Source: Candidatus Undinarchaeales archaeon (GTDB lineage: Archaea > SpSt-1190 > JASMDC01). Taken from it: DNA of 19,400 nucleotides. Shown in pieces: positions 45 through 18,983 of the stretch (the first letter of the stretch is position 1; every line of letters starts with the position of its first letter). The position numbers and the translations under genes are program-made. The DNA is taken from positions 1 through 19,400 of the forward strand of contig JASMDC010000056.1 in the NCBI GenBank assembly GCA_030753015.1, written 5' to 3'. The notes beneath the pieces are model-generated. The model was not told the origin of the DNA. It searched no databases and saw only the letters and a list, made by a program, of their open reading frames with translations.

Positions 45-1171
45 CCCGTCAGCCCCTCGTACACCGCCAGGTATCGTTTGACGGCCTCGTCCCAGGTGAA
101 GCGCGCCGTGTACTCGACGCCGGCGGATCCCATCCGTCCCGCAAGGGCTCGATCGTCCAAGAGCCGGTTGACGGCCTCCGCGATGGCCCGCGGATCTCTC
201 GGTTCGACGAGGATGCCCGTGACGCCGTCCTTGACGACCTCCGGGAGCGATCCCGCCCGTGATGCGACAACGGGCCGCCCCAGTGCCGACGCCTCCGCGG
301 CGCAGAACCCGAACCCCTCGGAGATCGAGGGGACGACGACGACGTCCCCGAGTGAGACGTAATCCGGCACGTCCTCCCTGGGCTGGCTGGGTATGAGGCG
401 GATCCGGTCGCCCAGGTCGAGCTCCCGGATCATGCGCACGCTCCGCTCGTACTCGTCCCGTGGCTTCTTCGTCATCATGAAGACGAAGGTGGCGTCGTCG
501 TTTATGTGGGGGAGCGCCCGGATGAGGTGCTCGGTTCCCTTGGTGACGCCCGGCCGGCCGAAGTAGAGCACCGTGGGGCCGTCCAGCCCGAGCTCGCTCC
601 TCAGTCCCGAGACGTCACGGGGCGTGAACGCGTCCTCCAGGCCGTTGTATACCACCGTCACCCGGTCGGCCGGGATCCCCGCGCGCACCAGCCGGTCCTT
701 GGTGTACTGGCTGACACTGATGATGTGGTCGTAAGGAAGGGAGATGATGCACTTCTCAGCCAGCCGGTGAGCGGTGGCGCTCGCCGCGCCCATCCCGAGG
801 TCGTGCCAGAGCTCGTCGAAGACCTCGTGGATAGTCGTGACGAGGGGCTTGCCATGGAACATCTTGGCCTTGAAGGCCGGGAGGCACGATGTGAATATCG
901 ACGTGTGGACCACGTCCGCGTTGCGAGCTGCCCTCACCGCCGCGGGGATACCGGACAGGGCGAACAGGTAGCGGTCGAAGCGGGACTCGATCCAGGGACG
1001 GTACACGGCGACACCGTTGACAACTTCGTGCTTCGAGGTCCCTGTGACACGACTGGTGATGACCGTCACCTCGTGGCCCTGATCGACTAAGCGTTCGGCT
1101 ACATTCTGGAACACGATCTCGCCACCACCGATATTAGGGTGGTAGTAATCGATCACATAGAGGATGTTCAT
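41..1171 (-). CDS. GT4 family glycosyltransferase
   Basis: This 376-residue protein has the size and layout of a GT-B glycosyltransferase of family GT4. The N-terminal domain opens with MNILYVIDYYHPNIGGGE, giving the Gly-rich acceptor-side loop. The C-terminal nucleotide-sugar domain starts near residue 197 with VLYFGRPGVTKG, whose Arg206 and Lys211 match the usual phosphate-binding pair. The EX7E motif is present as E285-GFGFCAA-E293, followed by the common GRPVVAS and LPEVV segments. No membrane segment is seen, so it should act on the cytosolic face, adding a sugar to a lipid-linked or soluble acceptor; donor and acceptor cannot be read from sequence. Its ATG overlaps the DUF2304 stop by four bases (ATGA), and its own stop overlaps the next GT4 start, so three genes are translationally coupled. 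Confidence 0.93.
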   Translation of the reverse strand: MNILYVIDYYHPNIGGGEIVFQNVAERLVDQGHEVTVITSRVTGTSKHEVVNGVAVYRPWIESRFDRYLFALSGIPAAVRAARNADVVHTSIFTSCLPAFKAKMFHGKPLVTTIHEVFDELWHDLGMGAASATAHRLAEKCIISLPYDHIISVSQYTKDRLVRAGIPADRVTVVYNGLEDAFTPRDVSGLRSELGLDGPTVLYFGRPGVTKGTEHLIRALPHINDDATFVFMMTKKPRDEYERSVRMIRELDLGDRIRLIPSQPREDVPDYVSLGDVVVVPSISEGFGFCAAEASALGRPVVASRAGSLPEVVKDGVTGILVEPRDPRAIAEAVNRLLDDRALAGRMGSAGVEYTARFTWDEAVKRYLAVYEGLTG

Positions 1172-1527
1172 TTGCTGGACCCGGTCTCATCTAGCTTTTC
1201 GTTGAAGATAGCGATCTCCCGCGTCATCTGGGTGATGTCACGTCGCTGCTGTTCGAAGAGCCCGAAAATTAGGTTGAGGCCCGTGAAGGCGACGAGGAGG
1301 GAGAGTGCGAACAGAGCGTCGAGAGGCCGCTGGAACATGAAGACCGCTGCTGTGTACTGCTGAAGGAGGTCGGGGAACAGAGCGAACACAATCACAATCG
1401 ACCAGAGCGCCCCCCAGGTCCAGACCTCCCACCTACGGAAGATGCGAAGACGGTACTTCTCGTAGCTCTTCAGTATCATGAAGGCCGCGATGAACACAAC
1501 CACGAGCTGGAACGGGTGGATCGCCAT
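1168..1527 (-). CDS. DUF2304 family small membrane protein
   Basis: This is a 119-residue protein with three predicted membrane segments (about residues 5-20, 36-52 and 69-90) and a charged, probably helical tail (91-119, FEQQRRDITQMTREIAIFNE) that should face the cytosol. The order of segments, the Trp-rich stretch before helix 2 and the RPLDALF motif before helix 3 fit DUF2304, a family of unproven function usually coded next to dolichyl-phosphate-sugar-synthase-like GT2 enzymes, as here. A paralogue with the same RPLDA motif lies at 12592-12918 beside a second such GT2. By analogy with the small membrane subunits of eukaryotic DPM synthase it may tether the soluble GT2, but that is inference. 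The start is supported by a TATA-like box about 26 bases upstream. Confidence 0.85.
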   Translation of the reverse strand: MAIHPFQLVVVFIAAFMILKSYEKYRLRIFRRWEVWTWGALWSIVIVFALFPDLLQQYTAAVFMFQRPLDALFALSLLVAFTGLNLIFGLFEQQRRDITQMTREIAIFNEKLDETGSSK

Positions 1528-1548
1528 GGGGCCCGGGAAGCCGGGTAT

Positions 1549-1557
1549 CTATAAAAG
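1549..1557 (-). promoter_or_regulatory. TATA-like box for the DUF2304-GT4-GT4 unit
   Basis: The minus strand reads cttttatag, centred about 26 bases from the ATG at 1527, in the 31-base gap after the GT2 gene. The spacing implies a leaderless transcript, so the DUF2304 gene has its own promoter despite being just downstream of the GT2. Confidence 0.6.
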
Positions 1558-1558
1558 A

Positions 1559-2245
1559 CTAGCGCTTGAGGTCCCGAAAGAAGGCGCGAACCATCTTGGT
1601 AGCGATGCTCGTCCCGTGCCATACCTGGGTTCCTCGCTCGACGTGGTAGTCCTCGTAGAGGGTGGCGATGGGCACCTCCTCGATGGTGAGGTGGTTCTGT
1701 GCTGCGATCTTGATGATCTCGGAGGAGACGGCATAGTCATCGTAGTAGATGTCCATCACCTCGATGGCCCGTCTGTTCATGGCACGCAGCCCCGACTGTG
1801 AATCGGTTACACGGCTCCCGAACAGCATGTTGGTAAGCGTCGTGAGGAACGAGTTGCCGAGCGTCTTCACCTGCGGCATCTCGCCGTCGCGCTCGATGAA
1901 GCGGGATCCGATGACTATATCTGCGGTGCCCTCGATGACGGGAGCCACCACGCGCTCGAGGTCGTCCGCCGTGTGTTGGCCATCGGCATCGCACGTCGCC
2001 GCGTACTCGAAGCCCTCCATCCTGGCGATGGCGAACCCGGTCCCCAAGGCGCCGCCGAGACCGCGGTTCAGGGGATGGCTCACGATCCTAGCGCCATGGC
2101 GGTGGACCACCTCGCGCGTGTCGTCCTCGCTGCAGTCATCGACGACCAGGATGTTCGGGAACACATCGCCCAGTGCATCCAGCACCGCGCCGATGCGGGT
2201 GGCCTCGTTGTAGGCCGGAACGATGACCAACACATCCTCGTGCAT
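1559..2245 (-). CDS. DPM1-like GT2 glycosyltransferase (polyprenyl-phosphate sugar synthase type)
   Basis: This GT-A fold enzyme has 228 residues from the chosen start. It shows the N-terminal VLVIVPAYNEA strand and loop, LVVDDCSEDDT at the uracil/ribose site, the metal-binding CDADGQH (DxD), GSRF, and TDSQSGLRAMNR. These are typical of the dolichyl-phosphate mannose/glucose synthase branch of GT2, which transfers a sugar from a nucleotide donor to a polyprenyl phosphate on the cytosolic side. It lacks the C-terminal membrane helices of some relatives, so it probably relies on the downstream DUF2304 protein for membrane contact (inference). An ATG at 2251 would add two residues, but the TATA-like box is centred about 26 bases from the ATG at 2245, so I chose 2245. 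A paralogue lies at 12915-13586. Confidence 0.9.
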   Translation of the reverse strand: MHEDVLVIVPAYNEATRIGAVLDALGDVFPNILVVDDCSEDDTREVVHRHGARIVSHPLNRGLGGALGTGFAIARMEGFEYAATCDADGQHTADDLERVVAPVIEGTADIVIGSRFIERDGEMPQVKTLGNSFLTTLTNMLFGSRVTDSQSGLRAMNRRAIEVMDIYYDDYAVSSEIIKIAAQNHLTIEEVPIATLYEDYHVERGTQVWHGTSIATKMVRAFFRDLKR

Positions 2246-2267
2246 GTACATCGTATCCCGGGGGTGG

Positions 2268-7026: not shown

Positions 7027-7034
7027 TTTATATG
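7027..7034 (+). promoter_or_regulatory. TATA box for gene A
   Basis: The sequence tttatatg is centred about 27 bases from the ATG at 7058, which fits a leaderless transcript. Confidence 0.7.
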
Positions 7035-7057: not shown

Positions 7058-8116
7058 ATGGTCCGGCACCGGCTCGCAGCGTCAGTTATCGTCCTGATGC
7101 TCATTATACCCGGTGCCCTCGGCGGTTGTATCGAGATCCTCGATACCGCCGTCGCGCGTCAGGAGTCCTATGTCTACCAGCTCAACACGCTCAGCTACTC
7201 GATCAACAACACGTGCAACGGAACGCGAGAGCTGGAGGTGTACATCAGCGCCATCAACGACGTTAGTTTCCTGGAGAACGCGACCCGGCGACTGGAGCTC
7301 GAGAACCTCACATCGTTCAGCATGCCATTCTATCCGATAAATGCTACGGAGGGCCCGTCATTCATCAATGTCGTTGTGACGGACCGGACAGAGGCCAAGT
7401 ATACCCTGACCGGCGGCCAGGCAACGCTCATCGTTTCCAATCCGCTCACAAGCGTTGCGTCCTGGTCCGTCGCCTTCGCGGTCCTGCTGGCGTTCATCCT
7501 CCGCAAACGACTGCACCAGCTCATAAAAAACGCTCCAGTGCTCACACTCATCGGTCTCTATCTCATCTACTGCAGCTACACGCTCGTCACCCAGGATGTG
7601 GTCCGGACGGCGGTGTTCGAGAAAGGCGTCCTCACGTCCGAGGTCGTCCTCTATGTCGAACTGGCAGTCGTCGGGATAGTCCTCGTCCTGTTCAATCGGA
7701 GCCTAGCGGCCCTGTTCCACCGTGATCCAATCGCCGCTATAGTCGCGCTCCTTGCCTTCGCGTATGTATTCCCCCCAACCCTCTACCTTGGCGAGGACGC
7801 GCTGGAGGCGATCACATCATGGTCGCTTGAACCTCTGAACGACGAGCTAATCTTCGTGTTCGGGCTGCCGCTCTTCGTGCTCAAGGAGCTGACACGGGTG
7901 TACTTCCTCGCTCCGGTGGGGATGCCGCTCATCATCATACTAGGTGTTCCTCTGACCATATTCTACTGGTCAGTCCTGCTCAAGTTCGTCGAGCGGGTGT
8001 TGACATCTCTTCGGAGCGACCTTGCGGCGTTGCGGGCCCGGCTCCCGGTCGAGGTCAAGGTGGTCGTTGAGACGAACTGCAAGAAGAAAGAGGATGACGA
8101 CGAGACCTCGAAATGA
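7058..8116 (+). CDS. Protein A: signal peptide, Cys-pair ectodomain and multi-pass membrane domain; unrecognised family
   Basis: I do not recognise this 352-residue protein. A signal peptide or first helix covers about residues 7-23. An outer domain runs from about 24 to 130 with Cys24 and Cys53, a VVVTDRT motif at 105-111 and five N-glycosylation sequons (N50, N54, N74, N83, N95). About five to six membrane helices follow (roughly 133-147, 158-177, 195-212, 224-240, 263-280, 286-305), and the last 45 residues are charged (CKKKEDDDET). It is a clear paralogue of protein B at 13670-14638: the two ectodomains align without gaps over about 107 residues, with cysteine spacing, VVVTDRT and NPL all conserved. 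By position it belongs with surface-glycan genes, but no enzymatic motif is visible. It has its own promoter and the next gene has another, so it is probably monocistronic. Confidence 0.85.
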   Translation: MVRHRLAASVIVLMLIIPGALGGCIEILDTAVARQESYVYQLNTLSYSINNTCNGTRELEVYISAINDVSFLENATRRLELENLTSFSMPFYPINATEGPSFINVVVTDRTEAKYTLTGGQATLIVSNPLTSVASWSVAFAVLLAFILRKRLHQLIKNAPVLTLIGLYLIYCSYTLVTQDVVRTAVFEKGVLTSEVVLYVELAVVGIVLVLFNRSLAALFHRDPIAAIVALLAFAYVFPPTLYLGEDALEAITSWSLEPLNDELIFVFGLPLFVLKELTRVYFLAPVGMPLIIILGVPLTIFYWSVLLKFVERVLTSLRSDLAALRARLPVEVKVVVETNCKKKEDDDETSK

Positions 8117-8137
8117 GCAGGGAATGCATACCGGGCC

Positions 8138-8154
8138 ATGACCTCAGGGGTCAT
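8138..8154. promoter_or_regulatory. Inverted repeat between gene A and the next promoter
   Basis: The sequence atgacc-tcagg-ggtcat has a perfect six-base stem and a five-base loop. It lies 22 bases after the gene A stop and 21 bases before the next TATA-like box. It could be an operator or a weak hairpin, and there is no T-tract to make it a convincing terminator. Confidence 0.3.
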
Positions 8155-8174
8155 CGCCCACGAGCGACATCACA

Positions 8175-8182
8175 TTAATATA
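8175..8182 (+). promoter_or_regulatory. TATA-like box before the 8206/8244 genes
   Basis: The sequence ttaatata is centred about 27 bases from a GTG at 8206, which begins a 15-codon frame, and about 65 from the GTG used by the large membrane protein. This is the only plus-strand promoter in the window that does not point directly at its main gene. Confidence 0.6.
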
Positions 8183-8205
8183 TTCCAATCCACCCCTCTC
8201 CGCCC

Positions 8206-8253
8206 GTGAGGGGAAAGGGTGCTCACGGCGATACCGACGGGAGGTGGGGCTGA
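8206..8253 (+). CDS. Possible 15-codon leader ORF
   Basis: A GTG placed at exactly leaderless distance from the TATA-like box opens a frame MRGKGAHGDTDGRWG that ends in TGA at 8251-8253. The frame overlaps the GTG start of the next gene and contains its GGAGGTG stretch. It could be a leader peptide coupling translation to the downstream gene. It could equally be chance, or the true N-terminus of that gene separated by a one-base indel in a G-rich stretch. I see no similarity to anything. Confidence 0.25.
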   Translation: MRGKGAHGDTDGRWG

Positions 8254-9449
8254 CGGCAAGGTCCCGCAAGCGTACGAAGCACCGGAAGAAGGAAGAGCCC
8301 GATGTCTGGAAGCGGCCCCTCATCGTCGGGCCGGCCCGGGAGGCGTGGAAGCGCCGGCTCCACCTCGCTGCCGCTGTCGTCATCACGACATTCTTTCTCT
8401 TCCAGCTCTACGGTTTCAACCTTCTATACAACGAGTTCAAGTGGGAAGCCGTGGGCAGGCCCGCGGCGCTCGACAGGCACCCCGAGTTCGCCGACGCCCC
8501 CCGGGCCGTGCAGCTGATGTACAAGCCCGACTCGTTCATCTACTACAACAGCATGCTCTCCATGCGCGGAGACCGCGAGTTCGAGCACCGGTACCGCTAC
8601 TTAAGGGCGGGCTACACGATCATGGGCGTGGCGGTATCCCGCGTCCTCCCCATGGACCCCGTCGAGGCGCTCCCCGTCGTCAGCTTCGTACTGATGGGCG
8701 CCGTGCTGTTCCTCACCTACCTCATCTCCGGGAGCGTGCTCGCTCCCGCGCTCTGCTACCTCTGGGGAAACCTCTGGGGGGAGTGGGGCTTTCTCGTGCT
8801 CCCTGACACGGCCGGCGTGCTCTTCCTGCTGCTGGCGCTGTGGTTCAGGTTCCGGCGCCGGTTCGTGCTCTCGCTGGCCACGTTCGCCGTGGGCCTCCTG
8901 ATGCGCGAGATCATCGTGTTCGCGCTGCCCCTCCTCCTGACGGACCGGCGGCTTGACCGGCGCGCTCTGGTCATCGCCGCCATCGGCATCGCGGCCTTCG
9001 TCGTCCTACAGCTGTCCCAGGTGCAGGAGATCGCCGCACGGATGTCGGGGACGATCGGTGGGCGCCTTGCCGAACCGGGAAAGATTCTCGCCGATCTGGT
9101 GCTCGTCTTCCAGGTTGCGTTCGGGCCCTTCGCCTACAAACTCGTGCTCCTGATCCTGGCGTACATCCTGTGCGAGGGGTACGTTCTTCCCGCCGTGATG
9201 GTGGACGCCGAGCGCCGCATGCGCGACCTCCATCTCATCGCAGTGCTGCCCCTCAACCTCGTTATGCTCTTCCTGTTCGCGGAGGACTTCACTGCACGCT
9301 ACATCCTATTCTCCGTGCCGTCCGTCGCCGTGCTCTCCGTCTCGATGATCTGGTCGGCAGGTGCCCTGTTCAGGGCCGCCCTGCAGCAGGAGGCGGCCGG
9401 TGCGGAGCGGACCGGAAAGACGACGGGAAAGAAGGGAAGGGGGGCGTGA
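8244..9449 (+). CDS. Polytopic membrane protein, GT-C-like (putative glycosyltransferase)
   Basis: A 401-residue protein with a very basic N-terminal tail (RSRKRTKHRKK), a first helix at about 40-60 and then a long outer loop of about 60 residues containing KPDSFIYYNSML (Asp96) and RYRYLRAGY. About eight further helices follow. The acidic residue after helix 1, the LMRE segment (219-222) and the late FTARYILFSVPS segment resemble GT-C/PMT-like or EpsG-like membrane enzymes, so a role in polymerising or decorating an exported glycan is possible; I cannot name a family. The GTG at 8244 is the only usual start codon ahead of the basic tail, but it sits inside a GGAGGTG stretch rather than downstream of it. 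A CTG at 8250 or an upstream start joined by an indel are alternatives. Its stop overlaps the methyltransferase start (GTGA). Confidence 0.75.
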   Translation: MGLTARSRKRTKHRKKEEPDVWKRPLIVGPAREAWKRRLHLAAAVVITTFFLFQLYGFNLLYNEFKWEAVGRPAALDRHPEFADAPRAVQLMYKPDSFIYYNSMLSMRGDREFEHRYRYLRAGYTIMGVAVSRVLPMDPVEALPVVSFVLMGAVLFLTYLISGSVLAPALCYLWGNLWGEWGFLVLPDTAGVLFLLLALWFRFRRRFVLSLATFAVGLLMREIIVFALPLLLTDRRLDRRALVIAAIGIAAFVVLQLSQVQEIAARMSGTIGGRLAEPGKILADLVLVFQVAFGPFAYKLVLLILAYILCEGYVLPAVMVDAERRMRDLHLIAVLPLNLVMLFLFAEDFTARYILFSVPSVAVLSVSMIWSAGALFRAALQQEAAGAERTGKTTGKKGRGA

Positions 9450-10126
9450 GGGCCAACACCATGGGCGACTGGGACGACGTGTGGCGCCGGGTATCACCCG
9501 GTCGGAGCTGGGCCAAGCGCCGCATCGTCGACGTACTCGCCCGACTCGACTGGGAGAAGGACGGTGACGTGATGGACCTGGGGTGTGGGAGCGGAGCGCT
9601 CTCTGCCATGATGGGTGAGTCCTTCCCAGAAGCACGGCTGTGGTTGGTGGACAGCTCCGAGAGGGCAATCGAACTGGCACGAGAGAACGTTGCTCCCGAG
9701 CGTGGCGCGCGGTTCGTTCAAATATCCTTTGAGGACATGGGATCGGGATCGGCCCCCGAACTCGACAAGATGATGGGGCGGTTCTCGCTGGTATACACCG
9801 ACGGACTGCTAGAGCACTTCCCCCGCGCTGAACAGGGCCACATCATCACCGTCTGTCGAAGACTGCTTGCCGACGGCGGGCTCCAGGTCCACGTCGTGCC
9901 CAACCGCTACCATCCCTGGCAGCTGGTGCGGCCTTTCGTCATCCGCGGCATCCCCGAGTCGCCCTTCACCCGGCACGACCACCGGGCGGCAGTCGCGGCA
10001 GCGGGGCTGTCGGAGGAGCTGGAGGGCCACGGTGGCATCTCTGTATTACCGACCGGGTACAGCCCCGAGGGGCTCGGTGAGTATGTTGGAATGCTCCGGT
10101 GGTTCGCATTGCGCCGTCGCGGCTAG
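9446..10126 (+). CDS. Class I SAM-dependent methyltransferase
   Basis: A 226-residue Rossmann-fold methyltransferase. Motif I is DLGCGSG at about 44-50. The acidic end of strand 2 is Asp69 in LWLVDSS, and FSLVYTDGLLEHF followed by LLADGGLQVHVVPN matches the later strands of the UbiE/COQ5-like methyltransferase_11 type. The substrate is unknown; position in this locus suggests a sugar, lipid carrier or glycan end group. I chose GTG at 9446 because it overlaps the upstream TGA (GTGA) and follows a purine-rich AAGGGGGG stretch; ATG at 9461, five codons later, is a fair alternative. It is co-transcribed with the preceding membrane protein. Its TAG stop shares a CTAG palindrome with the stop of the convergent radical SAM gene. 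Confidence 0.88.
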   Translation: MRANTMGDWDDVWRRVSPGRSWAKRRIVDVLARLDWEKDGDVMDLGCGSGALSAMMGESFPEARLWLVDSSERAIELARENVAPERGARFVQISFEDMGSGSAPELDKMMGRFSLVYTDGLLEHFPRAEQGHIITVCRRLLADGGLQVHVVPNRYHPWQLVRPFVIRGIPESPFTRHDHRAAVAAAGLSEELEGHGGISVLPTGYSPEGLGEYVGMLRWFALRRRG

Positions 10127-11559
10127 CCGCGAAACCTTGACATGTTGTAGTCGACGAAGCTGCGCAGCCCGAAGAGCTTGCGCTTAAGATCGGCGGGCGT
10201 GGCGATGTCGCGGGCCATGCGCGCCATCTGGCCCGGCCGCAGATAGAACTCCCGCAGCCCCTTGTCGATGAGCTCGTCGATCTCCCCCTTGGAAAGGTCT
10301 GGGTAGTCCAGCAGGGTGACCTGCTCGCCCTCAGGCGACACCCACTCCCGCCAGGAGGTGGGGACCATGTACCCGTGCTCGGCCGCCCAGTCGTACAGCG
10401 CCGTCCCGGGGTAGGTGCAGATGCCCGAGACCTGGATGGTGTCGCAGTGCAGCTCTCGCGAGAACCTCAGCGTCGCCTCGGCGGACTCCCGCGTCTCGCC
10501 CGGTGCGCCGACCATGAAGCATCCGTGGATGGTGAATCCCAGCTCGTGGGCGCGCTCGGCGAACCGCCGCGACTGCTCGAGAGTCACGCCTTTTTTCACA
10601 GCGTCCAGCGCCTCCTGGGTGCCGAACTCGAACCCCGTCATGAGCATGCGGCACCCCGCCTCCCGCATGAGCGGCAGGAGGTCGAGGTCGAGGTCCACCC
10701 GGGCGTTGCACGACCAGGTGACTTCCAGGCCCCGGTCCAGAATCTCCCGGCACACGCCCTCGGTGTGAGCGCGCACGGCGGCGAAGGTGTCGGTCTCGAA
10801 CATGATCTCCTGGAGCTGGGGGAAGGTGTGCAGGTCATGCTCGATCTCGTCCACCACGAGATCGGGGGTGCGCAGGCGCAGGGCGCGGCCCTCGATAACC
10901 TGAGTATCGCGACAGAATGTGCACCGTCCGTGGCACCCGCGGCCGGAGAGCAGGGTGAGGAAGGGGAATAGCTTGCCGCCGTCCCAGTACCACTCGGGCT
11001 CGACGTGGTGCCAGGCCGGGAAGGGAAGGTCGTTGACGTCGATCGGAGGACGTGGTGGTGTGTGACGGTTCTGCGACCCGTCCTTGAACGACACTCCGAG
11101 GACGTCCTTGAGCGGGATGCCACGAGCTATGTCGCGCAGGGTGAGATCGTACTCACCGCGGGCGACGGCGTCCACCGCGTCCCCGCCCCGGGCCAGGGTG
11201 TCGTCCGGGACCGCCGTCACGTGGGGGCCGATGAGCACGGTGGTGCACCCGGTGGCCTCCTTGGCCATGGCGGCGAAGGCGATGTCGCTATCGATGGAGG
11301 GTGTTGTCGTGTGGAGCACGGTCACGTCGGGCGAGAAGCGCTCCAGCTCCCGCCGCACCTCCTCAGCGGCCATATTGAGCGTGGCACCATCGATGAACCG
11401 CACATCATGCCCGTCACCCTCAAGCACGGCGACGGCGATGAGCATCCAGTCGGGGTGACGCTGCACCCGACCCCGGCTCCGGGCGGCCCACCGCGCCGAG
11501 CGGCAGAAGTCGGCCACCTCAGGCCAGGGAGGGTTGAGCACGAACACCTTGGCGCCCAT
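10123..11559 (-). CDS. B12-binding-domain radical SAM protein
   Basis: A 478-residue enzyme of the cobalamin-binding radical SAM group. The N-terminal half (about 1-160) has the Rossmann-like B12-domain layout, starting KVFVLNPPWP, with SPDVTVLHTTTPS and VLIGPHVTAVP, as in BchE/HpnJ-type proteins. After the linker DVNDLPFPAWH comes the radical SAM core with the 4Fe-4S motif C209-HGR-C213-TF-C216 and later GFEFGTQEALD and GAPGETRES segments. Such enzymes use radical chemistry for methylation, rearrangement or C-C bond steps, often on lipids or glycans; the substrate here is not readable. It is transcribed alone toward the methyltransferase from a box about 27 bases upstream, which also fixes the start. 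Confidence 0.9.
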   Translation of the reverse strand: MGAKVFVLNPPWPEVADFCRSARWAARSRGRVQRHPDWMLIAVAVLEGDGHDVRFIDGATLNMAAEEVRRELERFSPDVTVLHTTTPSIDSDIAFAAMAKEATGCTTVLIGPHVTAVPDDTLARGGDAVDAVARGEYDLTLRDIARGIPLKDVLGVSFKDGSQNRHTPPRPPIDVNDLPFPAWHHVEPEWYWDGGKLFPFLTLLSGRGCHGRCTFCRDTQVIEGRALRLRTPDLVVDEIEHDLHTFPQLQEIMFETDTFAAVRAHTEGVCREILDRGLEVTWSCNARVDLDLDLLPLMREAGCRMLMTGFEFGTQEALDAVKKGVTLEQSRRFAERAHELGFTIHGCFMVGAPGETRESAEATLRFSRELHCDTIQVSGICTYPGTALYDWAAEHGYMVPTSWREWVSPEGEQVTLLDYPDLSKGEIDELIDKGLREFYLRPGQMARMARDIATPADLKRKLFGLRSFVDYNMSRFRG

Positions 11560-11581
11560 CGGTCATCGTGGGCACGACAAC

Positions 11582-11589
11582 GGTTAAAC
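11582..11589 (-). promoter_or_regulatory. TATA-like box for the radical SAM gene
   Basis: The minus strand reads gtttaacc, centred about 27 bases from the ATG at 11559, inside the 49-base gap after the GT2 gene. The spacing implies leaderless mRNA. Confidence 0.55.
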
Positions 11590-11608
11590 GTGTTGCGTCG
11601 AAGCGCCG

Positions 11609-12592
11609 TCAGCCGACCCGGCCCAGGAGCCTGTCCACAAGGTGCGCGTACACGCCCGCGCTCCCCGCAAGCGACCTGAGGGACGCCAGCACCGGGGCGA
11701 CGAGCAGCATCGACGGCTCGCTCCTCGCGGCCCAGATGCCCAGGGGGAGGTTTGAGACCAGGAGCAGTCCGAGCCCGAGGGCGGGCGCTGCGGCATGGAC
11801 GGCGGTCGCGGGGAGTGAGAGCACGGCTAGGTTCGCCAGGATGAACTGTGTCTGGGCCTCGTACCCTGTGTAGGAGTCACCGCGGACGAACTTGTCGCGG
11901 TTGCGCAGGTACATGGGCACCCGCCAGTAGCCGCGGTGGTACTGCTGGCGCAAGTAGATGTCAAGAGAGGGCGGATGGTGGTGGCCGACGCGGCCTGCGT
12001 CGGTGAAGAGGAGCCGGCCGCCCTTCTGATGTAGGGTGAACGCCAGGTCGAAGTCCTCACCGCTGGCGGTGCGGAAGTCCGTGCTGAATCCGCCCGCCGC
12101 CAGGAAGGCGTCGCGGCGGTAGGCCGTGGCGTAGGTCGCCAGGACGTCCACCTCCTTTCCCAGGGACCGCTCCTGTCGCCGTGCGATCTCGTGGTCCACG
12201 AACCGCGCCACCAGATGCTCGGGATTGACGGGGAAGTAGCCGCAGGACGCGCCCACCACGTCGTCGTTTAGGGCTCCCGTGAGGGCCGCAAGCCAGTCGG
12301 GGGGCGGGACGCAGTCGGCGTCCAGGAACACGATGATGTCCGCATCGGTCGCCTCAACGCCGCGGTTGCGGGCCGCTGCCGGTCCCTTGTTGTCCTGCTC
12401 GAGCACCGTCACCCGGTGGCGCGAGCGTCCAACGTACTTCCGGGCGATGTCCGGGGAGCGGTCGGTGCTCCCGTCGTCCACGACGATCACGTCGACCGGG
12501 GGATGGTCCTGTGCCTCCAGGGCATCGAGGGTGTCGCCCAGCGTCGCCTCTGCGTTGTACGCGGGGACGATGACGGTGACGTCGGTGTTCAC
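11609..12592 (-). CDS. GT2 glycosyltransferase with C-terminal membrane segments
   Basis: A 327-residue GT-A enzyme. It has TVIVPAYNAE, IVVDDGSTDRS, the metal site FLDADC (D91/D93), the catalytic-base region SGEDFDL (E179/D180) and an RQQYHRGYWR segment at 215-224 like the (Q/R)xxRW element of membrane GT2 enzymes. Hydrophobic stretches at about 249-268, 271-288 and 294-310 anchor it, so it acts at the cytosolic face on a membrane-bound acceptor. The frame stays open to 12802, but the real start is the GTG at 12592, which overlaps the DUF2304 TAG by one base (TAGTG) behind a GGGAGGA site. It is the third gene of a coupled GT2-DUF2304-GT2 operon, in the place the GT4 holds in the left-hand copy of the module. 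Confidence 0.92.
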   Translation of the reverse strand: MNTDVTVIVPAYNAEATLGDTLDALEAQDHPPVDVIVVDDGSTDRSPDIARKYVGRSRHRVTVLEQDNKGPAAARNRGVEATDADIIVFLDADCVPPPDWLAALTGALNDDVVGASCGYFPVNPEHLVARFVDHEIARRQERSLGKEVDVLATYATAYRRDAFLAAGGFSTDFRTASGEDFDLAFTLHQKGGRLLFTDAGRVGHHHPPSLDIYLRQQYHRGYWRVPMYLRNRDKFVRGDSYTGYEAQTQFILANLAVLSLPATAVHAAAPALGLGLLLVSNLPLGIWAARSEPSMLLVAPVLASLRSLAGSAGVYAHLVDRLLGRVG

Positions 12593-12918
12593 TACTCGTC
12601 GTCCTCCCGCAGGGAGAGGTGGCGGACCACCTTCGTGAGGTTGCGATCCATTTCGTTGAGCCGCAGGTACACCCGCAGGCACAGCAGGAGCGAGGTCACC
12701 GACGCCACGGTGAGGAAGGCGTCGAGGGGCCGATTGAACGCCAGCAGCGCAAGCGCCTGGGCGAAGTGCCCGGGGAGCAGGGTGATGTAGAGCAGCGCGC
12801 ACAACGCAAGCGCCAGCAGCAGGGCGCCTGTGTCAGAGCGGTCGCGGCGCAGGCCCGCGAGCACGCGGACGAGGGCAAGAAGGAGGACGATCGTCCCGAT
12901 TATCTGTATCAGCATCAT
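12592..12918 (-). CDS. DUF2304 family small membrane protein (second copy)
   Basis: A 108-residue protein with helices at about 3-22, 31-48 and 66-86 and a charged tail that should form a cytosolic helix (RLNEMDRNLTKVVRHLSLRE). The FNRPLDAFL stretch before helix 3 matches FQRPLDALF of the copy at 1168-1527, which supports the shared DUF2304 assignment even though the rest has diverged. Its ATG overlaps the GT2 stop (ATGA) and follows an AGGAGGTT site at good spacing, so it is made together with that GT2. The probable job, recruiting or orienting the soluble GT2 at the membrane, is inferred from constant pairing and from analogy with DPM2/DPM3. Confidence 0.85.
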   Translation of the reverse strand: MMLIQIIGTIVLLLALVRVLAGLRRDRSDTGALLLALALCALLYITLLPGHFAQALALLAFNRPLDAFLTVASVTSLLLCLRVYLRLNEMDRNLTKVVRHLSLREDDE

Positions 12919-13586
12919 GGTAGGAACCTCCTAAGGAGCAGGTCGAGGGCGATGGCGACGCCGTCGGCGACACTCGTGCCCTTTCGTGTATCCAGGTAGT
13001 GGGAGCGTATGGGTACCTCCACCAACCTCAGACTGTTGCGGGCGGCCTCGCCAACCATCTCGGAGCAGAACCCGTAACGGTCCACCCGCAGCTCGAACAG
13101 TTCTGCGGCGCGTCGGTTGAGGGCGCGGAAGCCGCTCTGGCTGTCGGTGAGTGGCACGCCGTACAGAAGGCGGGTCAGCCAGGTGAGGCTGTGGTTCCCA
13201 ATACGCTTCACCAGCGGCATATCGTCGATGCCGCCCAAGAACCGCGAGCCGATCACCACGTCGGCCTCGTCCTCGAGAACGGGCCTGGTCACGACGGTGA
13301 TGTCCTCGGCCCGGTGCTGGCCATCGGCGTCCACGGTGACGATGATGTCGGCGCCCAGGTCGAGCGCCCGGCGGATGCCCGTGGCGACGGCCGCCCCTGC
13401 GCCGCGGTTCACCAGGTGGCGGACCACGCGAGCACCGTGCTCCCGGGCAATGGACGAGGTGTCATCGGTGGACCCATCATCAACCACCACGACCTCGGCT
13501 TGAGCGCGCACTCCGTCGACCACATCACCTATGCGGGGGCCCTCGTCGTAGGCCGGTATGACGGCGATGACCTTCGATCCGTTCAC
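12915..13586 (-). CDS. DPM1-like GT2 glycosyltransferase (second copy)
   Basis: A 223-residue soluble GT2 of the polyprenyl-phosphate-sugar synthase type. It has VIAVIPAYDEG, VVVVDDGSTDDT, TVDADGQH (D86/D88), GSRFLGG and TDSQSGFRALNRR. It parallels the enzyme at 1559-2245 in length, motifs and DUF2304 partner, so the two probably arose by module duplication; differences around 115-125 and 165-205 may reflect a different donor sugar. The frame is open to 13640, but GTG at 13586, preceded by GGGAGGA about seven bases upstream, gives the usual family N-terminus. Unlike first genes elsewhere in the window, it appears to use a short leader with a ribosome binding site. It heads the operon that ends at 11609. 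Confidence 0.9.
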   Translation of the reverse strand: MNGSKVIAVIPAYDEGPRIGDVVDGVRAQAEVVVVDDGSTDDTSSIAREHGARVVRHLVNRGAGAAVATGIRRALDLGADIIVTVDADGQHRAEDITVVTRPVLEDEADVVIGSRFLGGIDDMPLVKRIGNHSLTWLTRLLYGVPLTDSQSGFRALNRRAAELFELRVDRYGFCSEMVGEAARNSLRLVEVPIRSHYLDTRKGTSVADGVAIALDLLLRRFLP

Positions 13587-13635
13587 ATCCTGTCCTCCCA
13601 CACCGTACGCTCTCCCACAGCAGGGAAGGCACCAC

Positions 13636-13647
13636 CACATTTATGTG
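13636..13647. promoter_or_regulatory. Near-palindromic TATA element between divergent units
   Basis: The sequence cacatttatgtg reads almost the same on both strands. On the plus strand its centre is about 27 bases from the GTG at 13670 (gene B). On the minus strand it would place a start site near 13615, leaving about 30 bases of leader that contains the GGGAGGA of the GT2 gene. It may serve both directions. Confidence 0.5.
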
Positions 13648-13669
13648 TTCTGCTCTCCCTTCCATCCCC

Positions 13670-14638
13670 GTGGATCACGGACGGTGTGCCCGGGGGATCG
13701 CAGCGGTGCTCCTCCTCCTGGTAGTCTCCGCTCTGGGCGCGGACGGCCCGTGCGTGACCATCGCGGACGTGTCGGTCGAACGGACGGACATCTGGGCCTA
13801 CCAGGTGGACATGCTCACCGTCGCTCTCGAGAACGAGTGCGGCGGACAGCGCGAGGTGGAGGTGCTGGCCAATCCCAGCGGACGGTTCACCATTCTGGGC
13901 GAGCATACCGTGCGCCTTGTCCTCGAGGAGCGGCGCGAGCTCGTCTTCACCTTCTATCCCAGGGGCGGTACGGCGGCTCTCACTCATCTCCCGGTGGTCG
14001 TCACGGACCGGACAGGGGGTGATGAGCGCATGGCCGGAGCGAAGGCCGAGCTCTACGTAGCCAATCCTCTGGCCCAGTTGTGGTACACCGCGGCGGTCCT
14101 GTTCCTGGGAGCCGCGTACCTGCGTCGCGGCTGGCTTCGTGAGCAGCTGGAGCTGAGCCCGCTCCCCCTGGCCGTGGGCATCTGGCTCGTTCACCGCGGC
14201 CACCTCTTGGCCACCCGGGGCGCGCTGGCTGGGGCGACCGACGTCACGAACGGGATCGTTGTCGTCGAGCTCGTGGGCCTCGGTCTGCTGCTGGTGGCGT
14301 TCGGCCGCACCGTCTCCCGGACCGCCAGGGCCCACCCGCTCACGCTCGTCATCGCCGTCTACATCCTCGCAAGGACCATCCCTCCGGACGCCTACATCCC
14401 TCCCGACATGGTGCGCGCGTGGGACGCGCGGTCGCTCGTCCCGCTCCGGGAGGAGGCGCTGTTCGTGCTGGCCCTTCCGCTCTACATCCTGGGGGAGGCG
14501 AGCCGACTGCATGTGTTCCACGGGCTCCATCCCGTCGCCGTGCTGGTCGTCGCCGCCCTGCCTACGGTAGTGTACTGGCGAACGCTAGCTCGGGCGTGGC
14601 ATGGTCTGCGACGGGCGGAAGCGGGAACGGTCCTATGA
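13670..14638 (+). CDS. Protein B: paralogue of protein A
   Basis: A 322-residue protein of the same unrecognised family as protein A. It has a signal peptide (about 8-24) and an ectodomain with Cys28 and Cys57, the same 29-residue spacing as Cys24/Cys53 of A. The VVVTDRT motif (109-115) and NPL (132-134) are also conserved, with a constant offset of four residues. Multiple membrane helices follow, with shared segments around PP (238-239) and SLxPLxxE...FVxxLPLxxLxE (255-276). It has none of the usable sequons found in A, and it lacks the long charged tail. An ATG at 13643 is in frame but lies inside the TATA element, so I chose GTG at 13670. It is divergent from the GT2-DUF2304-GT2 operon and overlaps the end of the next gene by six bases. 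Confidence 0.82.
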   Translation: MDHGRCARGIAAVLLLLVVSALGADGPCVTIADVSVERTDIWAYQVDMLTVALENECGGQREVEVLANPSGRFTILGEHTVRLVLEERRELVFTFYPRGGTAALTHLPVVVTDRTGGDERMAGAKAELYVANPLAQLWYTAAVLFLGAAYLRRGWLREQLELSPLPLAVGIWLVHRGHLLATRGALAGATDVTNGIVVVELVGLGLLLVAFGRTVSRTARAHPLTLVIAVYILARTIPPDAYIPPDMVRAWDARSLVPLREEALFVLALPLYILGEASRLHVFHGLHPVAVLVVAALPTVVYWRTLARAWHGLRRAEAGTVL

Positions 14639-16846
14639 GCGGGCGGAGTACACCCGGAAGGTCGGATTTGCATGGACCTCCTCGTAGCAGGTCCCTTCCA
14701 GGTCACGAACGAGAGCCTGGTACCGTTCGCTCTCCCAAAGCCGAAGGAGCCGGTCCACGACCACCAGGGGCGGATCGTGACGCGAACATAGTGCGTTCAA
14801 CCGCGTCCGGTCAAGGAACGATGGGAACCTGAGATTGTCGTCGAGCCGCTTCCCGAGGATGTTCAAGAAGGTCGTCGGGTAGCGATAGATGAGGACCGAG
14901 CCCTCTGGCCTGGCCTCGAGCGCCCGGACGGCATCCCGCACGTCCGTCGGCGGGTGGTGGGGCAATGCGATCTCGGCGCCTAGAAGCGTGCGCGCATGGA
15001 CGGTGATGAACGCCAAACGGTCGATATGGCCCGCAACCAACAGAATCGCGACGGCCAGCAGGAGCGCACGCTTGACGGCCGGTTCCGAGGCCGCGCTCTC
15101 CAAGACGGCGGTGAGCGCCCGGCCCGCCAGCAGCGAGAGGCCCGGCAGGGCCACTAAGAACAGGCGCAGCTCGTGAAAGCCGGATGGACGGTAGCCGACT
15201 ATGGGCAGTGAAGGGAGCCACCATAGAAGGGCGGGTACCGCAAGCAGAAAGGGAAGCTCCAGCGGATCGCTCCGCTGCTCGTAGATGATGAAGGCAGCAA
15301 GCACGAGGAGGAGGAGGGGGGTCCCCCCCAGGGTGGCCGGGCTCATGTAGCCGGACGCGCCGCCCATGACCAGCACGGCCAGCACGATCAAGAGATCCTC
15401 GTATACCGACCCCCTGCGGTGGACAAGAGCCACCGCCAGGACCAGGATGCCCAGGCGCGGTAGTGTCAGTACCGCAAGCCCCTCGTAGCCTCCGGAGCCG
15501 CTGAGAAGCAGCACAATGAGGGCTGCTGCCAGAACGATCACGGGGCGAAGGGCCGTGCGAGGGGCAGGGCCCGCCCTCTCGGCCAGATACCAGCTACCTG
15601 TGGCCACCGCGCCGGCCAGGAAACCGTAGTGGAAGAATACGCGGTCCCCGGTCCCCTCCCACATGAGCGGCAGCAGCGCCGCGACGCACAGGCACGGTCC
15701 CAGCGCCCGGGCGCGTTGCGGCGACGTGAAGAGAAGGTAGAATCCTGTGGAGAGGAGAAGGAGCGACAGGTAGAGGAATCCTGCCGAGTGGGAGAGGCCA
15801 ACGGTGAGGGTGACGAGGAGGAGCAGTGCGTTCCTGCCCAATGTCACGGGGAGTGCCACGGCGGCCGCCACGGCAACGATCGCCAGAGGCAGGCTCAACA
15901 TGGATGCCATCGGCTGGGCGGTTATCCCCACGTTATACGGGTGAATGAGGAGGACGAGGGTGCCGAGGGCGGCGGTCGCGGGCGGGAGGCGGAGGGCGCG
16001 CACGAGTACTATGAAGGCGGCCGGGAAGAGCAGCGCCAAGAGGTAGACGCCCCCCTCTGTCGTCGTGAGCAGCATGAGGGCGGCCAGCAGGTAGTGGAAG
16101 CCGAACAAGTAGCCGGGATCCATCTGCGCCGTGACGGATGGGTAGTGGCCGGTGTCCCGCACCACTGCCGCCTCGTGATGGTTGAAGAAGGCATCGCTCC
16201 CGGGATAGAGCGGCAGGGTCAGGATGGGCCCGCGCGCCCAGGCAGCGAGGATGAGGACCACCAGCCACAGGAGGACGAGTGAGCGGCGCGAGCGCAAGCC
16301 GTGGAGGGCGATGAGCACCAGGAATACCGACATGACGAGAAGGCCGAGCCTCCTCGGTGTCGCGGTGGCCAGATGGACCGCTGCCCGGGAGTTCGTGAAT
16401 GGCCGGTCGAATGTCTCCTCGGCAATGGTGGCATACACGTGCTCGGCGCCCGGCCGGTCGGCCTCCAGGTCCGTGCGCTGGAGCCGGGCGCCGCGGACGA
16501 CGCCCTGGTCGAAGGGCAGCGGGACGCGCACGGCGGTCGGTCCGCCGGGGCACGCGGGACGGTCGAGGCGCACCGAGACGACCTCGTCCCGGGATGCTGT
16601 GCGTCCCCCGTCCACGGGCTCGAGCACATCTACCAGCAGCTGGAGGCGGATGCCGTAGGACACGCTGGAGACGATGCACGCGTCGCCGTCGTTCGCCACC
16701 AGCACCATCGCGTGGCCGGGGAGCGGGCCGTCGGTCAAGGACAGTGTCACGCCGTCGCCGCCCTGCCCGAAAGCGGGCAGGAGAAGGGCCGCGAGGAGGA
16801 ACGCGATACGGGCCTTTTGGGTGGAGAGCGTGCCGGTAGCGCCCAT
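14633..16846 (-). CDS. Large membrane protein with N-terminal ectodomain and GT-C-like core (tandem copy 1)
   Basis: A 737-residue protein. A signal peptide (about 12-28) is followed by an outer domain of about 130 residues with VANDGDACIVSS (Cys57) and RPACPGG (Cys99). About ten or more helices start near 165. After helix 2 comes LYPGSDAFFNHHEA (Asp218, His-His-Glu 223-225) and then DPGYLFGFHYLLAALM, in the position of the acidic first outer loop of GT-C glycosyltransferases. The last 110 residues are soluble (PPLVVVDR ... HANPTFRVYSA). It is a paralogue of the next gene upstream. Family-level function is inferred: transfer of a lipid-linked sugar or glycan outside the membrane. I do not see the WWDYG motif of AglB/STT3 oligosaccharyltransferases. 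The start ATG sits about 28 bases from its TATA-like box. Confidence 0.75.
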   Translation of the reverse strand: MGATGTLSTQKARIAFLLAALLLPAFGQGGDGVTLSLTDGPLPGHAMVLVANDGDACIVSSVSYGIRLQLLVDVLEPVDGGRTASRDEVVSVRLDRPACPGGPTAVRVPLPFDQGVVRGARLQRTDLEADRPGAEHVYATIAEETFDRPFTNSRAAVHLATATPRRLGLLVMSVFLVLIALHGLRSRRSLVLLWLVVLILAAWARGPILTLPLYPGSDAFFNHHEAAVVRDTGHYPSVTAQMDPGYLFGFHYLLAALMLLTTTEGGVYLLALLFPAAFIVLVRALRLPPATAALGTLVLLIHPYNVGITAQPMASMLSLPLAIVAVAAAVALPVTLGRNALLLLVTLTVGLSHSAGFLYLSLLLLSTGFYLLFTSPQRARALGPCLCVAALLPLMWEGTGDRVFFHYGFLAGAVATGSWYLAERAGPAPRTALRPVIVLAAALIVLLLSGSGGYEGLAVLTLPRLGILVLAVALVHRRGSVYEDLLIVLAVLVMGGASGYMSPATLGGTPLLLLVLAAFIIYEQRSDPLELPFLLAVPALLWWLPSLPIVGYRPSGFHELRLFLVALPGLSLLAGRALTAVLESAASEPAVKRALLLAVAILLVAGHIDRLAFITVHARTLLGAEIALPHHPPTDVRDAVRALEARPEGSVLIYRYPTTFLNILGKRLDDNLRFPSFLDRTRLNALCSRHDPPLVVVDRLLRLWESERYQALVRDLEGTCYEEVHANPTFRVYSARS

Positions 16847-16870
16847 CGTACCGGCGGGACGACACCATGA

Positions 16871-16878
16871 AATAAAAA
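16871..16878 (-). promoter_or_regulatory. TATA-like box for tandem copy 1
   Basis: The minus strand reads tttttatt, centred about 28 bases from the ATG at 16846, in the 48-base gap after tandem copy 2. The second copy therefore need not depend on read-through. Confidence 0.55.
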
Positions 16879-16894
16879 GGGCTTCCCTCGACCC

Positions 16895-18919
16895 TCACGG
16901 TGCTGCCGCGAAGGCGCGGAAGGTGGGATTGGCGTAGACCTGGCGGTAACAGGAGCCGTCCAGCGCCATCAGGAGGGCGCGGTGGTCGTCGTCGGTGTAG
17001 AGCGCCATGTACCGGTCGACCACGACCAGCGGCGGCGCGTCGGACGCGCAGAACCGGGATAATTCCTCCGGGGAGAGCGGCGGGATCATGAAGCCCCTGC
17101 GCAGGATGCGCTTGTCGACAGCCTCGTGGAAGTGCTCGCTCGAGTGGTAGACGACCAGCCCCGTCTCCGGCCGGTCCTCGATGAAGCGGACGATGTCGCG
17201 CAGGTCGCCCGGTGGGTGACGCGGCACGGCCCAGTACGCGGGCATCCCCAGACGGAGCTCATCGGCGCCGAGGACGGTTACGCGGTCGAGCTGTGACGCG
17301 ACCAGTCCGACGACGATCAGCCACAGCACGGCGCGCCTGACGCTCGGCTCCTCGGTGATGCGCGCTAGCAGGGTGTCGAGCCCGCTGGCCGCCAGGAAGG
17401 CGATGCCTAGGGCCGACGAGATGAAGATACGCATGCGGAACACAATGCCCATCGCGTACCCGAGGCCGGGGATGGCGGCGAAGGACCAGAGAGCATGGGG
17501 GAGGGCCAGCAGGAAGGGCAGCTCCAGGCCCCCGCCGACGGTCCGGAAGCGGAGGAAGGCGACGAGCGCCAGCAGGCCGAGGGCGGCGCCGCCGATGTTC
17601 CTCGAGCGCCAGTACTCCCCAACCCCGACGTTCAGGGAGAGGAGTAAGAGGACGGCGCCGACGACGAGGCTCAAGCGGAGGAGGCCGTCCGCGGAGCGGG
17701 AGCCGATCCGCGAGGCGAGGAGGATGAGCAGTCCGGCGAGGAGGCCGGGGCGGTAAAGAGGGTGGTCGGCCGTCGCCACGGCAAGGCAAATCAGGGCGGC
17801 CGCGGCCAGGGCAATGCCCGCGGGCGCGAGCCGCTGCCGCTCCCCGAGGAACTGCCAAGCCGCTGTGCAGGAGAGGGCGAGGGTGAGGTACACGAATCCG
17901 CCCGAATGGGACAGGCCGATGGCAAGGGCGACGAGGAGAAGCACGGCAGCGCGGGCGCGCGCCGTCCCGCCGGCAAGGGCGACCACGACGGCGGACCCCA
18001 CCATGGGGAGCGTCATGGTGGTCGGTATAGTGGTGGAGGTCATCACGATGTGGTAGGTCTGTGTCCCCAGAAGGAAGGCGGTCAGCGGGGCCACACGCGG
18101 CGGTAGGCAGGTGCGGCGGACGAGGACGACGAGCACCGGGACGAGGAGGGCCGGGATCAGGAACGTCCCCCACGGCGTCCCTGTGAGGTGCATCAGGGCC
18201 GCTAAGAGATAGTGGAAGCCGAACATGTACCCGTCCCGCAATCGCTCCTCCACCGGCGGATACCGGCCCGTAGCCGTCAATACTGTGGCCTCGTGGAGGT
18301 TGTAGGTGGCGTCCCGGTCGGGGACGGGAAGGAGCGTGAGGATGTGCCAGCGGGCGGCGAGGACGACCACGAGGACCAGCACCCAGAGCAGGAGGCGGTC
18401 GGAGCGCGAACGCCGGGCCCGCCGGGCGGTGACGACCAGGAGGGCGGAGACGAGCGCGATCAGCATGCGCACGGGACCGACGGTGGCCACTGCCCGGACC
18501 ACGGGTCCGTGGGCGAAGGGTATCGACACATCGCGCTCCGCCGTCACCATAACGACGTCCTCCGAGCGCGGCGGGGTGCGCACCACCCGGACGGCGGTGA
18601 CGGTGCCCTTCGCATAGGCTGCCGCAAAGAGCATGGTACGCCGCTCACCGGGGCACAGGGCCCGGTCGATCCGCGCAGAGACGTTGACCGGCTCGACCAC
18701 GCCGTCGCGCTCCACCTCCAGTCCCAGCTGGGCACGCACGTCGTACACGATGCTCGAGGACACGCAGGCATCGCCGACGTTCGCCACCTCGACGCCATAG
18801 ATGCCAGGGAACGGCACGTCCGCCAAGGCCACATCGAGCAGGTCCAGCCCGGCGGCGAAGTGTGCCACGACCAGCAGGACTGCGGCCGCGAGGACGGCTG
18901 TCCGTCGTATGCGGGCCAT
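16895..18919 (-). CDS. Large membrane protein with N-terminal ectodomain and GT-C-like core (tandem copy 2)
   Basis: A 674-residue paralogue of the protein at 14633-16846, in the same order. It has a signal peptide (about 7-24), an ectodomain with VANVGDACVSSS (Cys52) and RALCPGE (Cys89), and membrane helices from about 148. The loop PDRDATYNLHEA (Asp201, Asp203, His209-Glu210) and DGYMFGFHYLLAALM follow. The C-terminal soluble domain contains HPPGDLRDIVRFIE, PPLVVVDR and YANPTFRAFA. Both copies share the cysteine pair, the loop acid, the His-Glu pair and the C-terminal signatures, which points to one conserved activity with different partners. The frame runs open to 19336, but ATG at 18919 begins a proper signal peptide and lies about 30 bases from a TATA-like box; upstream sequence belongs to the divergent flippase gene. 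The GT-C assignment is by architecture, not by a named family match. Confidence 0.75.
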   Translation of the reverse strand: MARIRRTAVLAAAVLLVVAHFAAGLDLLDVALADVPFPGIYGVEVANVGDACVSSSIVYDVRAQLGLEVERDGVVEPVNVSARIDRALCPGERRTMLFAAAYAKGTVTAVRVVRTPPRSEDVVMVTAERDVSIPFAHGPVVRAVATVGPVRMLIALVSALLVVTARRARRSRSDRLLLWVLVLVVVLAARWHILTLLPVPDRDATYNLHEATVLTATGRYPPVEERLRDGYMFGFHYLLAALMHLTGTPWGTFLIPALLVPVLVVLVRRTCLPPRVAPLTAFLLGTQTYHIVMTSTTIPTTMTLPMVGSAVVVALAGGTARARAAVLLLVALAIGLSHSGGFVYLTLALSCTAAWQFLGERQRLAPAGIALAAAALICLAVATADHPLYRPGLLAGLLILLASRIGSRSADGLLRLSLVVGAVLLLLSLNVGVGEYWRSRNIGGAALGLLALVAFLRFRTVGGGLELPFLLALPHALWSFAAIPGLGYAMGIVFRMRIFISSALGIAFLAASGLDTLLARITEEPSVRRAVLWLIVVGLVASQLDRVTVLGADELRLGMPAYWAVPRHPPGDLRDIVRFIEDRPETGLVVYHSSEHFHEAVDKRILRRGFMIPPLSPEELSRFCASDAPPLVVVDRYMALYTDDDHRALLMALDGSCYRQVYANPTFRAFAAAP

Positions 18920-18945
18920 GACGACGGCAGGAAGGCCACCAACGG

Positions 18946-18953
18946 TTAAAAAA
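18946..18953 (-). promoter_or_regulatory. TATA-like box for tandem copy 2
   Basis: The minus strand reads ttttttaa, centred about 30 bases from the ATG at 18919, in the 97-base divergent gap before the flippase gene. Confidence 0.5.
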
Positions 18954-18983
18954 GGCTCTGTCGCGCTGGCAGCCACGCGTGGA

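Follow-up and report, generated by a model that had tools for sequence, protein, structure and literature searches.

What are the two multi-pass membrane proteins encoded in a predicted surface-glycan locus of a Candidatus Undinarchaeales archaeon, and do they take part in the glycosylation pathway whose genes surround them? The locus occupies a 19,400-nucleotide stretch of contig JASMDC010000056.1 (assembly GCA_030753015.1), the whole of which was analyzed and is referred to as the window, and the two proteins, A and B, are specified by open reading frames (ORFs) that are both intact. The anatomy of the A/B family is well supported and we hold it with considerable confidence, and the best reading of its distribution is that of a small, lineage-restricted archaeal family, absent from the relatives searched. 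With regard to function, we tentatively favor A and B as outer-face, non-catalytic accessory proteins (acceptor-binding or scaffold) of a transmembrane glycosylation locus. The proteins and their parts, including an ectodomain with an immunoglobulin (Ig)-like model in A, are as follows.

7058..8116, forward strand: protein A (352 amino acids), with signal peptide, Ig-like ectodomain (as modeled), about six hydrophobic helices and a charged C-terminal tail
7127..7450, forward strand: ectodomain of A (residues 24-131), an eight-stranded Ig-like sandwich in the AlphaFold2 model
7451..7993, forward strand: membrane domain of A (residues 132-312)
13670..14638, forward strand: protein B (322 amino acids counted from the GTG at 13670), architecture as in A
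13751..14074, forward strand: ectodomain of B, with the Cys pair (spacing 29) and zero sequons
14075..14578, forward strand: membrane domain of B

Comparison of A with B by BLASTP resulted in 31% identity across 296 residues (E=3e-40), and against shuffles that keep local composition the pair reached Z values of 21 over the full length, 26 in the ectodomain and 13 in the membrane half. This agrees with a first-pass annotation of the same DNA, which had proposed a paralogous pair with a signal peptide, a two-cysteine ectodomain and a multi-pass domain, and its finer observations were likewise borne out. It had estimated 35-40 identities over about 107 ungapped ectodomain residues, and 39 of 107 are identical when A and B are laid side by side without gaps from the first cysteine onward; the cysteine spacing of 29 was re-measured in both proteins, the constant four-residue offset between them is correct with B numbered from the GTG at 13670, and the PP element and SLxPL...FVxxLPL segment of the membrane halves are present in the A/B alignment. 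The distance from the first cysteine to the NP preceding the first membrane helix is also the same, at 104 residues, in A and B alike.

Neither protein matched a family in Pfam, NCBIfam, PHROGs, PADLOC or the PDB sequences, in keeping with the annotation, which had recognized no family; the match of both proteins to a characterized family, which it had named as contrary evidence, did not occur in the libraries searched. At E 1, Pfam and NCBIfam still returned zero families, and thus none of glycosyltransferase family 2 (GT2), DUF2304, GtrA/Wzx or the glycosyltransferases of fold C (GT-C), and the ectodomains alone at E 10 matched no Ig-like Pfam family, CARDB and NEW3 models included. A profile built from A, B and a further copy, B', was searched against 394 archaeal genomes together with the related half of a protein from contig C61 (both copies are described below), and only generic Ig-like or hydrophobic-segment matches were obtained; the best of these, archaeal surface proteins with CARDB/NEW3-like domains, were inspected and rejected as generic. 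Short A/B peptide patterns recovered no relative from the collected genome contigs and viral contigs, although distant relatives would escape such patterns. Homology of A and B to the N-terminal ectodomain of the neighboring GT-C proteins was considered and rejected (hhalign probability 0.3%).

That the weak profile matches lead only to archaeal surface proteins is what would be expected if A and B were general surface-exposed Ig-like proteins, serving in recognition, adhesion or envelope structure, that merely lie within a variable glycan island and have no direct role in synthesis. We consider this view somewhat doubtful, and the structural models bear on it as well. AlphaFold2 was given two sequences only, and the mean predicted local distance difference test score (pLDDT) was 51 for both proteins. 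The ectodomain of A was nevertheless modeled as an eight-stranded sandwich at pLDDT mostly 70-80, with a best Foldseek match to 2r39, a FixG-related Ig-like domain (E=8.6e-6, TM-score by target 0.65), and with VIA Z of ~10-11.6 against many Ig-like domains, the top match being a HAP2 domain (Z=11.6, root-mean-square deviation 2.3 over 99 residues). The model thus depicts an Ig-like beta-sandwich of about 105 residues in A, a fold consistent with the surface-protein view; the ectodomain of B was modeled at pLDDT 30-40 only, which is of very low confidence. Five N-glycosylation sequons occur in the ectodomain of A, where 1.9 are expected from shuffles (P=0.02), and zero in B, B' and the C61 copy, a pattern compatible with a decorated surface protein.

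In the model of A, strands 25-37 and 40-51 form the first hairpin with a register sum of 77, and the cysteines C24 and C53 sum to the same value and face across the hairpin base. This placement makes a structural disulfide likely, and the two ectodomain cysteines probably form one. A redox-linked alternative is that the Cys pair is a reducible disulfide served by a DsbD/CcdA-like conduit, such as the one fused to the same domain on C61. We regard this as unlikely: the pair lies in register at the hairpin base with a constant spacing of 29, is staple-like rather than of the CxxC type, and the window contains no redox gene.

The membrane domain of A and B comprises about six hydrophobic segments. 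Its fold was not assigned, since the models were too weak, and matches to the B model were mostly designed helical repeats and uninformative. Across four family copies the invariant membrane residues are limited to G, P, L, A and W; no charged membrane residue is invariant in all four, and catalysis is therefore unlikely. These results bear directly on the proposal that A and B supply what a GT2-DUF2304-GT-C system would otherwise lack as its third part, either as a flippase for polyprenyl-phosphate sugars or in some other catalytic capacity in the membrane. The multi-pass domain does adjoin GT2-DUF2304 and GT-C genes, and E263, E277 and R280 (A numbering) are common to A, B and B', though absent from the C61 copy. 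However, A and B match no GtrA, Wzx, SMR or transporter family in Pfam or NCBIfam, the locus already contains the start of a Wzx/MATE-like gene (truncated ORF 19017-19400; Polysacc_synt E=9e-5, weak and below cut-off), and the other archaeal DUF2304 loci sampled manage without A or B, so that we judge this proposal very unlikely.

The genome (3.85 Mb in 117 contigs, 98.9% complete, 5.0% contamination) carries two copies beyond A and B, namely B' on contig C101 and a probable fourth on contig C61. The genomes of nine sampled class-mates measure 0.6-1.1 Mb, a conspicuous jump in size within a class that has been thinly sampled. The genome encodes aRF1, which marks it as archaeal, and the nearest aRF1 proteins are those of class-mates, at 52-54%. 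The B' protein is 72% identical to B and the ectodomains are 86% identical, and C101 matches the 11.5-15.5 kb part of the window in gene order, with a DNA identity of 72-84%. It is without the interval corresponding to 12955-13559 of the window (the core of a DPM1-like GT2 gene, ~600 bp), of which stubs of both ends are left (L031 2391-2400), and downstream of the deletion DUF2304 and the second GT2 form one fused ORF of 436 amino acids (L002:2427-3737). The ratio of nonsynonymous to synonymous substitution rates (dN/dS) of B versus B' is ~0.49, compared with ~0.22-0.27 for the neighbors, indicating that the B protein is under constraint and that B' is kept by purifying selection. Between the B block and C101, dS differs strongly by segment (0.19 in the ectodomain, 0.70 in the membrane part and 1.25 in the GT-C), which suggests recombination, and such jumps would also suit surface proteins of a variable island. 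C101 may represent a second locus or a co-binned strain.

The C61 copy is the C-terminal half of a 581-amino-acid protein whose N-terminal half is DsbD_2 (E=1.2e-15). A matched this half at E=8e-7 (BLASTP, composition correction off), with Z values against shuffles of 6.5 for A and 2.7 for B, and the A+B+B' profile scored it at E=0.35; the reverse search from the C61 half does not recover A or B. It follows the A/B plan, with a Cys spacing of 29, NP at +105 and a multi-pass domain after it. The pattern C-x28-C-x74,75-NP finds the four copies only, among 3307 ORFs of at least 150 amino acids, and is supportive rather than a blind test, the tolerance on the NP spacing having been chosen after the C61 copy was seen. 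Matches elsewhere to a relaxed pattern were wrong-frame ORFs and were discarded. Judged on these alignments and spacings, the C-terminal half of the C61 protein is a probable fourth member of the family.

The fusion itself is the principal point in favor of the redox-linked alternative. C37 and C157, read from the sequence, fall in the first and fourth membrane segments of the C61 protein, places typical of CcdA, and the gene adjoins, 9 bp to its 5' side, a gene for a lipoprotein-like product that carries three Rieske domains (E=8.5e-42); against this, the C61 copy is only weakly similar in sequence to A and B. More far-reaching still, A, B, B' and the DsbD fusion could be imagined as a new family coupling extracellular redox state, by way of the DsbD conduit and its Rieske partner, to how a surface glycosylation complex assembles or works, which we rate as the most improbable of the readings considered. 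The C61 pair of a lipoprotein with three tandem Rieske [2Fe-2S] domains and a DsbD_2/Ig-like multi-pass fusion (L030:1960-4923, forward strand) is an unusual extracellular redox gene pair and, apart from its bearing on A and B, an unusual combination of domains. The C61 copy is located outside any glycan locus, a further point for the surface-protein view.

The other copies are found among glycosylation genes, of which those closest to the argument are listed here.

1168..2251, reverse strand: first DUF2304 and DPM1-like GT2 pair of the locus
8244..9449, forward strand: small GT-C-like protein (401 amino acids) directly 3' of A, without a recognizable ectodomain
11609..12598, reverse strand: second GT2 of the B block
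12592..12918, reverse strand: DUF2304 (GacJ-like) protein, partner of the DPM1-like GT2
12915..13640, reverse strand: DPM1-like GT2, divergent from B, that probably starts near 13586 and has lost its core in C101
14633..16846, reverse strand: GT-C-like membrane protein (737 amino acids), convergent to B; it has an N-terminal ectodomain of its own and no library match
16895..18973, reverse strand: GT-C-like paralogue of the 14633..16846 protein, 39% identical

Both GT2-DUF2304 pairs exceed the cut-off for PF00535 and PF10066, and the window also encodes WecB, a sugar epimerase and a glycosyltransferase of family 4 (GT4). Several large multi-pass proteins have a D..HE loop after an early helix (by eye) and no Pfam or NCBIfam match above cut-off; the 401-amino-acid protein has a weak NCBIfam match, below cut-off, to a cell-surface glycopolymer family. 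Paired GT2 and DUF2304 proteins, with DUF2304 in the role of GacJ beside a GacI-like GT2, produce lipid-linked sugars for GT-C enzymes (PMC8327497), and on this ground the locus looks like a multi-component transmembrane glycosylation system (PMC8035078). Each of the three DUF2304 genes in the genome is on a contig with an A/B family member. Two observations in particular argue against A and B as mere bystanders of a glycan island: DUF2304 accompanies three of the four copies in their glycan blocks, and B is closely flanked by GT2 and GT-C genes, its stop codon overlapping that of the convergent GT-C-like gene (14633..16846), a 3' overlap found in the window and in C101.

Several other genes of the window deserve mention in their own right. 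The tandem GT-C-like paralogues with N-terminal ectodomains (14633-18973, reverse strand) have zero Pfam or NCBIfam matches. At 3869-4573 (reverse strand) a membrane-anchored protein, CARDB-like by eye, has a weak match to PF05506, a phospholipase C C-terminal domain (E=0.004, below cut-off), and the 3' end of its gene overlaps the start of a GT-C-like gene, making it a second ectodomain protein adjoining a GT-C. A B12-binding radical SAM protein (10123-11559, reverse strand) is nearest to the hopanoid enzyme HpnJ (TIGR03471, 356 bits, cut-off 578) and may, like calditol synthase, modify a lipid or a sugar.

Under the accessory-protein reading, the signal peptide would export A and B so that one CARDB-type Ig-like sandwich stands outside the cell on an anchor of about six helices, with the disulfide pinning the beginning of strand A to where strand B ends in the ectodomain. 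GT2 and DUF2304 would make polyprenyl-phosphate sugars, a flippase would turn them over and the GT-Cs would use them outside, where A and B may engage the acceptor glycan or keep a GT-C in position. A would act next to the small GT-C without an ectodomain, and B next to the large GT-Cs and the adjoining GT2/DUF2304 pair. A review proposes that small GT-Cs may require a second protein for acceptor-polymer binding (PMC8035078), and the 401-amino-acid GT-C beside A fits this proposal, lacking an ectodomain, whereas the 692- and 737-amino-acid GT-Cs carry their own. Surface location, accessory role and physical contact with a GT-C are what we infer for A and B.

How A and B are expressed bears on this partnership, and a TATA-like box precedes each gene.

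7027..7034, forward strand: TATA-like box TTTATATG, 31-24 bp 5' of the ATG start codon of A
13640..13645, forward strand: TATA-like box TTTATG, ~27 bp 5' of the GTG of B; in C101 the upstream block is identical

The box TTTATATG would constitute a leaderless-type archaeal promoter for A. For B, the GTG at 13670 is a better start than the ATG at 13643, because the latter sits within the TATA-like box; the resulting box-to-start arrangement resembles that of other genes of this locus and of B', and the block upstream of B is conserved in C101 despite the loss of the divergent GT2 there, which fits a promoter of B. A TATA-like stretch near 8172-8186 stands between A and the downstream small GT-C, so that a single operon of A with the 8244-9449 gene is only putative.

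Is the family, then, a conserved part of the pathway? The first-pass annotation had correctly noted two copies in one glycan locus (A and B share the window with two GT2-DUF2304 pairs), from which it suggested "a conserved membrane component of this pathway"; this suggestion is not supported, with no relative in the 394 archaeal genomes or at the glycosylation loci sampled. Profile searches of the neighbors of 80 DPM1-like GT2 genes from other organisms and of 20 archaeal DUF2304 loci from 19 families resulted in zero A/B relatives, and a screen near 100 GT2/DUF2304 loci for unrelated proteins of the A/B plan found none. Its overall reading therefore holds for an unrecognized family in a glycan locus and not for a conserved pathway component.

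These and several other results also weigh against the accessory role that we favor. In the class-mate genome G002, GT2, DUF2304 and GT-C are present and an A/B-like gene was not found; together with 19 other DUF2304 loci (18 further archaeal families) without such a protein, this shows that the pathway can run without one, and a GT2-DUF2304 module without A or B in relatives is likewise what the surface-protein view predicts. B' persists in C101 where the DPM1-like GT2 core is deleted, and the probable fourth copy, outside glycan loci, forms one protein with a DsbD-like domain. A appears to be served by a TATA-like promoter of its own, as may the GT-C gene that follows it. Contact of A or B with any GT-C is something we infer, and the membrane-domain model is of low confidence. 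Taken together, these results suggest that archaeal glycosylation loci contain, in A and B, a membrane-protein family not described before, and that this family is not a universal GT2-DUF2304 partner.

Parts of A and B can be compared with several known systems. In E. coli DsbD, as in the C61 protein, a membrane conduit and an Ig-like outer domain are combined in one chain. The DsbD/CcdA conduit (PF13386, PF02683) is found at the N-terminus of the C61 copy and is absent from A and B; the domain order of the fusion differs from that of DsbD, and the paired cysteines are not closely spaced as in a redox pair. The CARDB/NEW3-type Ig-like domains of archaeal surface proteins resemble A in their two-sheet sandwich of ~105 residues and in weak profile matches, whereas A and B differ from them by the Cys pair at spacing 29, the six-helix membrane domain and zero Pfam matches at E 10. 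The VARTIG modules of Thermococcales are likewise archaeal islands with Ig-domain proteins, but they center on a large multi-Ig hypervariable protein (PMC8416519), while A and B have one Ig domain (modeled in A) and a multi-pass anchor, with B and B' ectodomains 86% identical. The locus also resembles GacI-GacJ-GacK-GacL of Streptococcus, EpaI-EpaJ and GtlA-GtcA-GtlB in its paired GT2 and DUF2304 (GacJ-like) genes, and its putative GT-C-like proteins and Wzx-like gene would extend the likeness (PMC8035078, PMC8327497). A and B match no named component of these systems, and a counterpart with an Ig-like ectodomain is not described in the sections of PMC8035078 and PMC8327497 on which we draw. 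If the accessory role is true, it would illustrate how a small GT-C can rely on a distinct subunit to bind its acceptor, an arrangement suggested for bacterial systems (PMC8035078).

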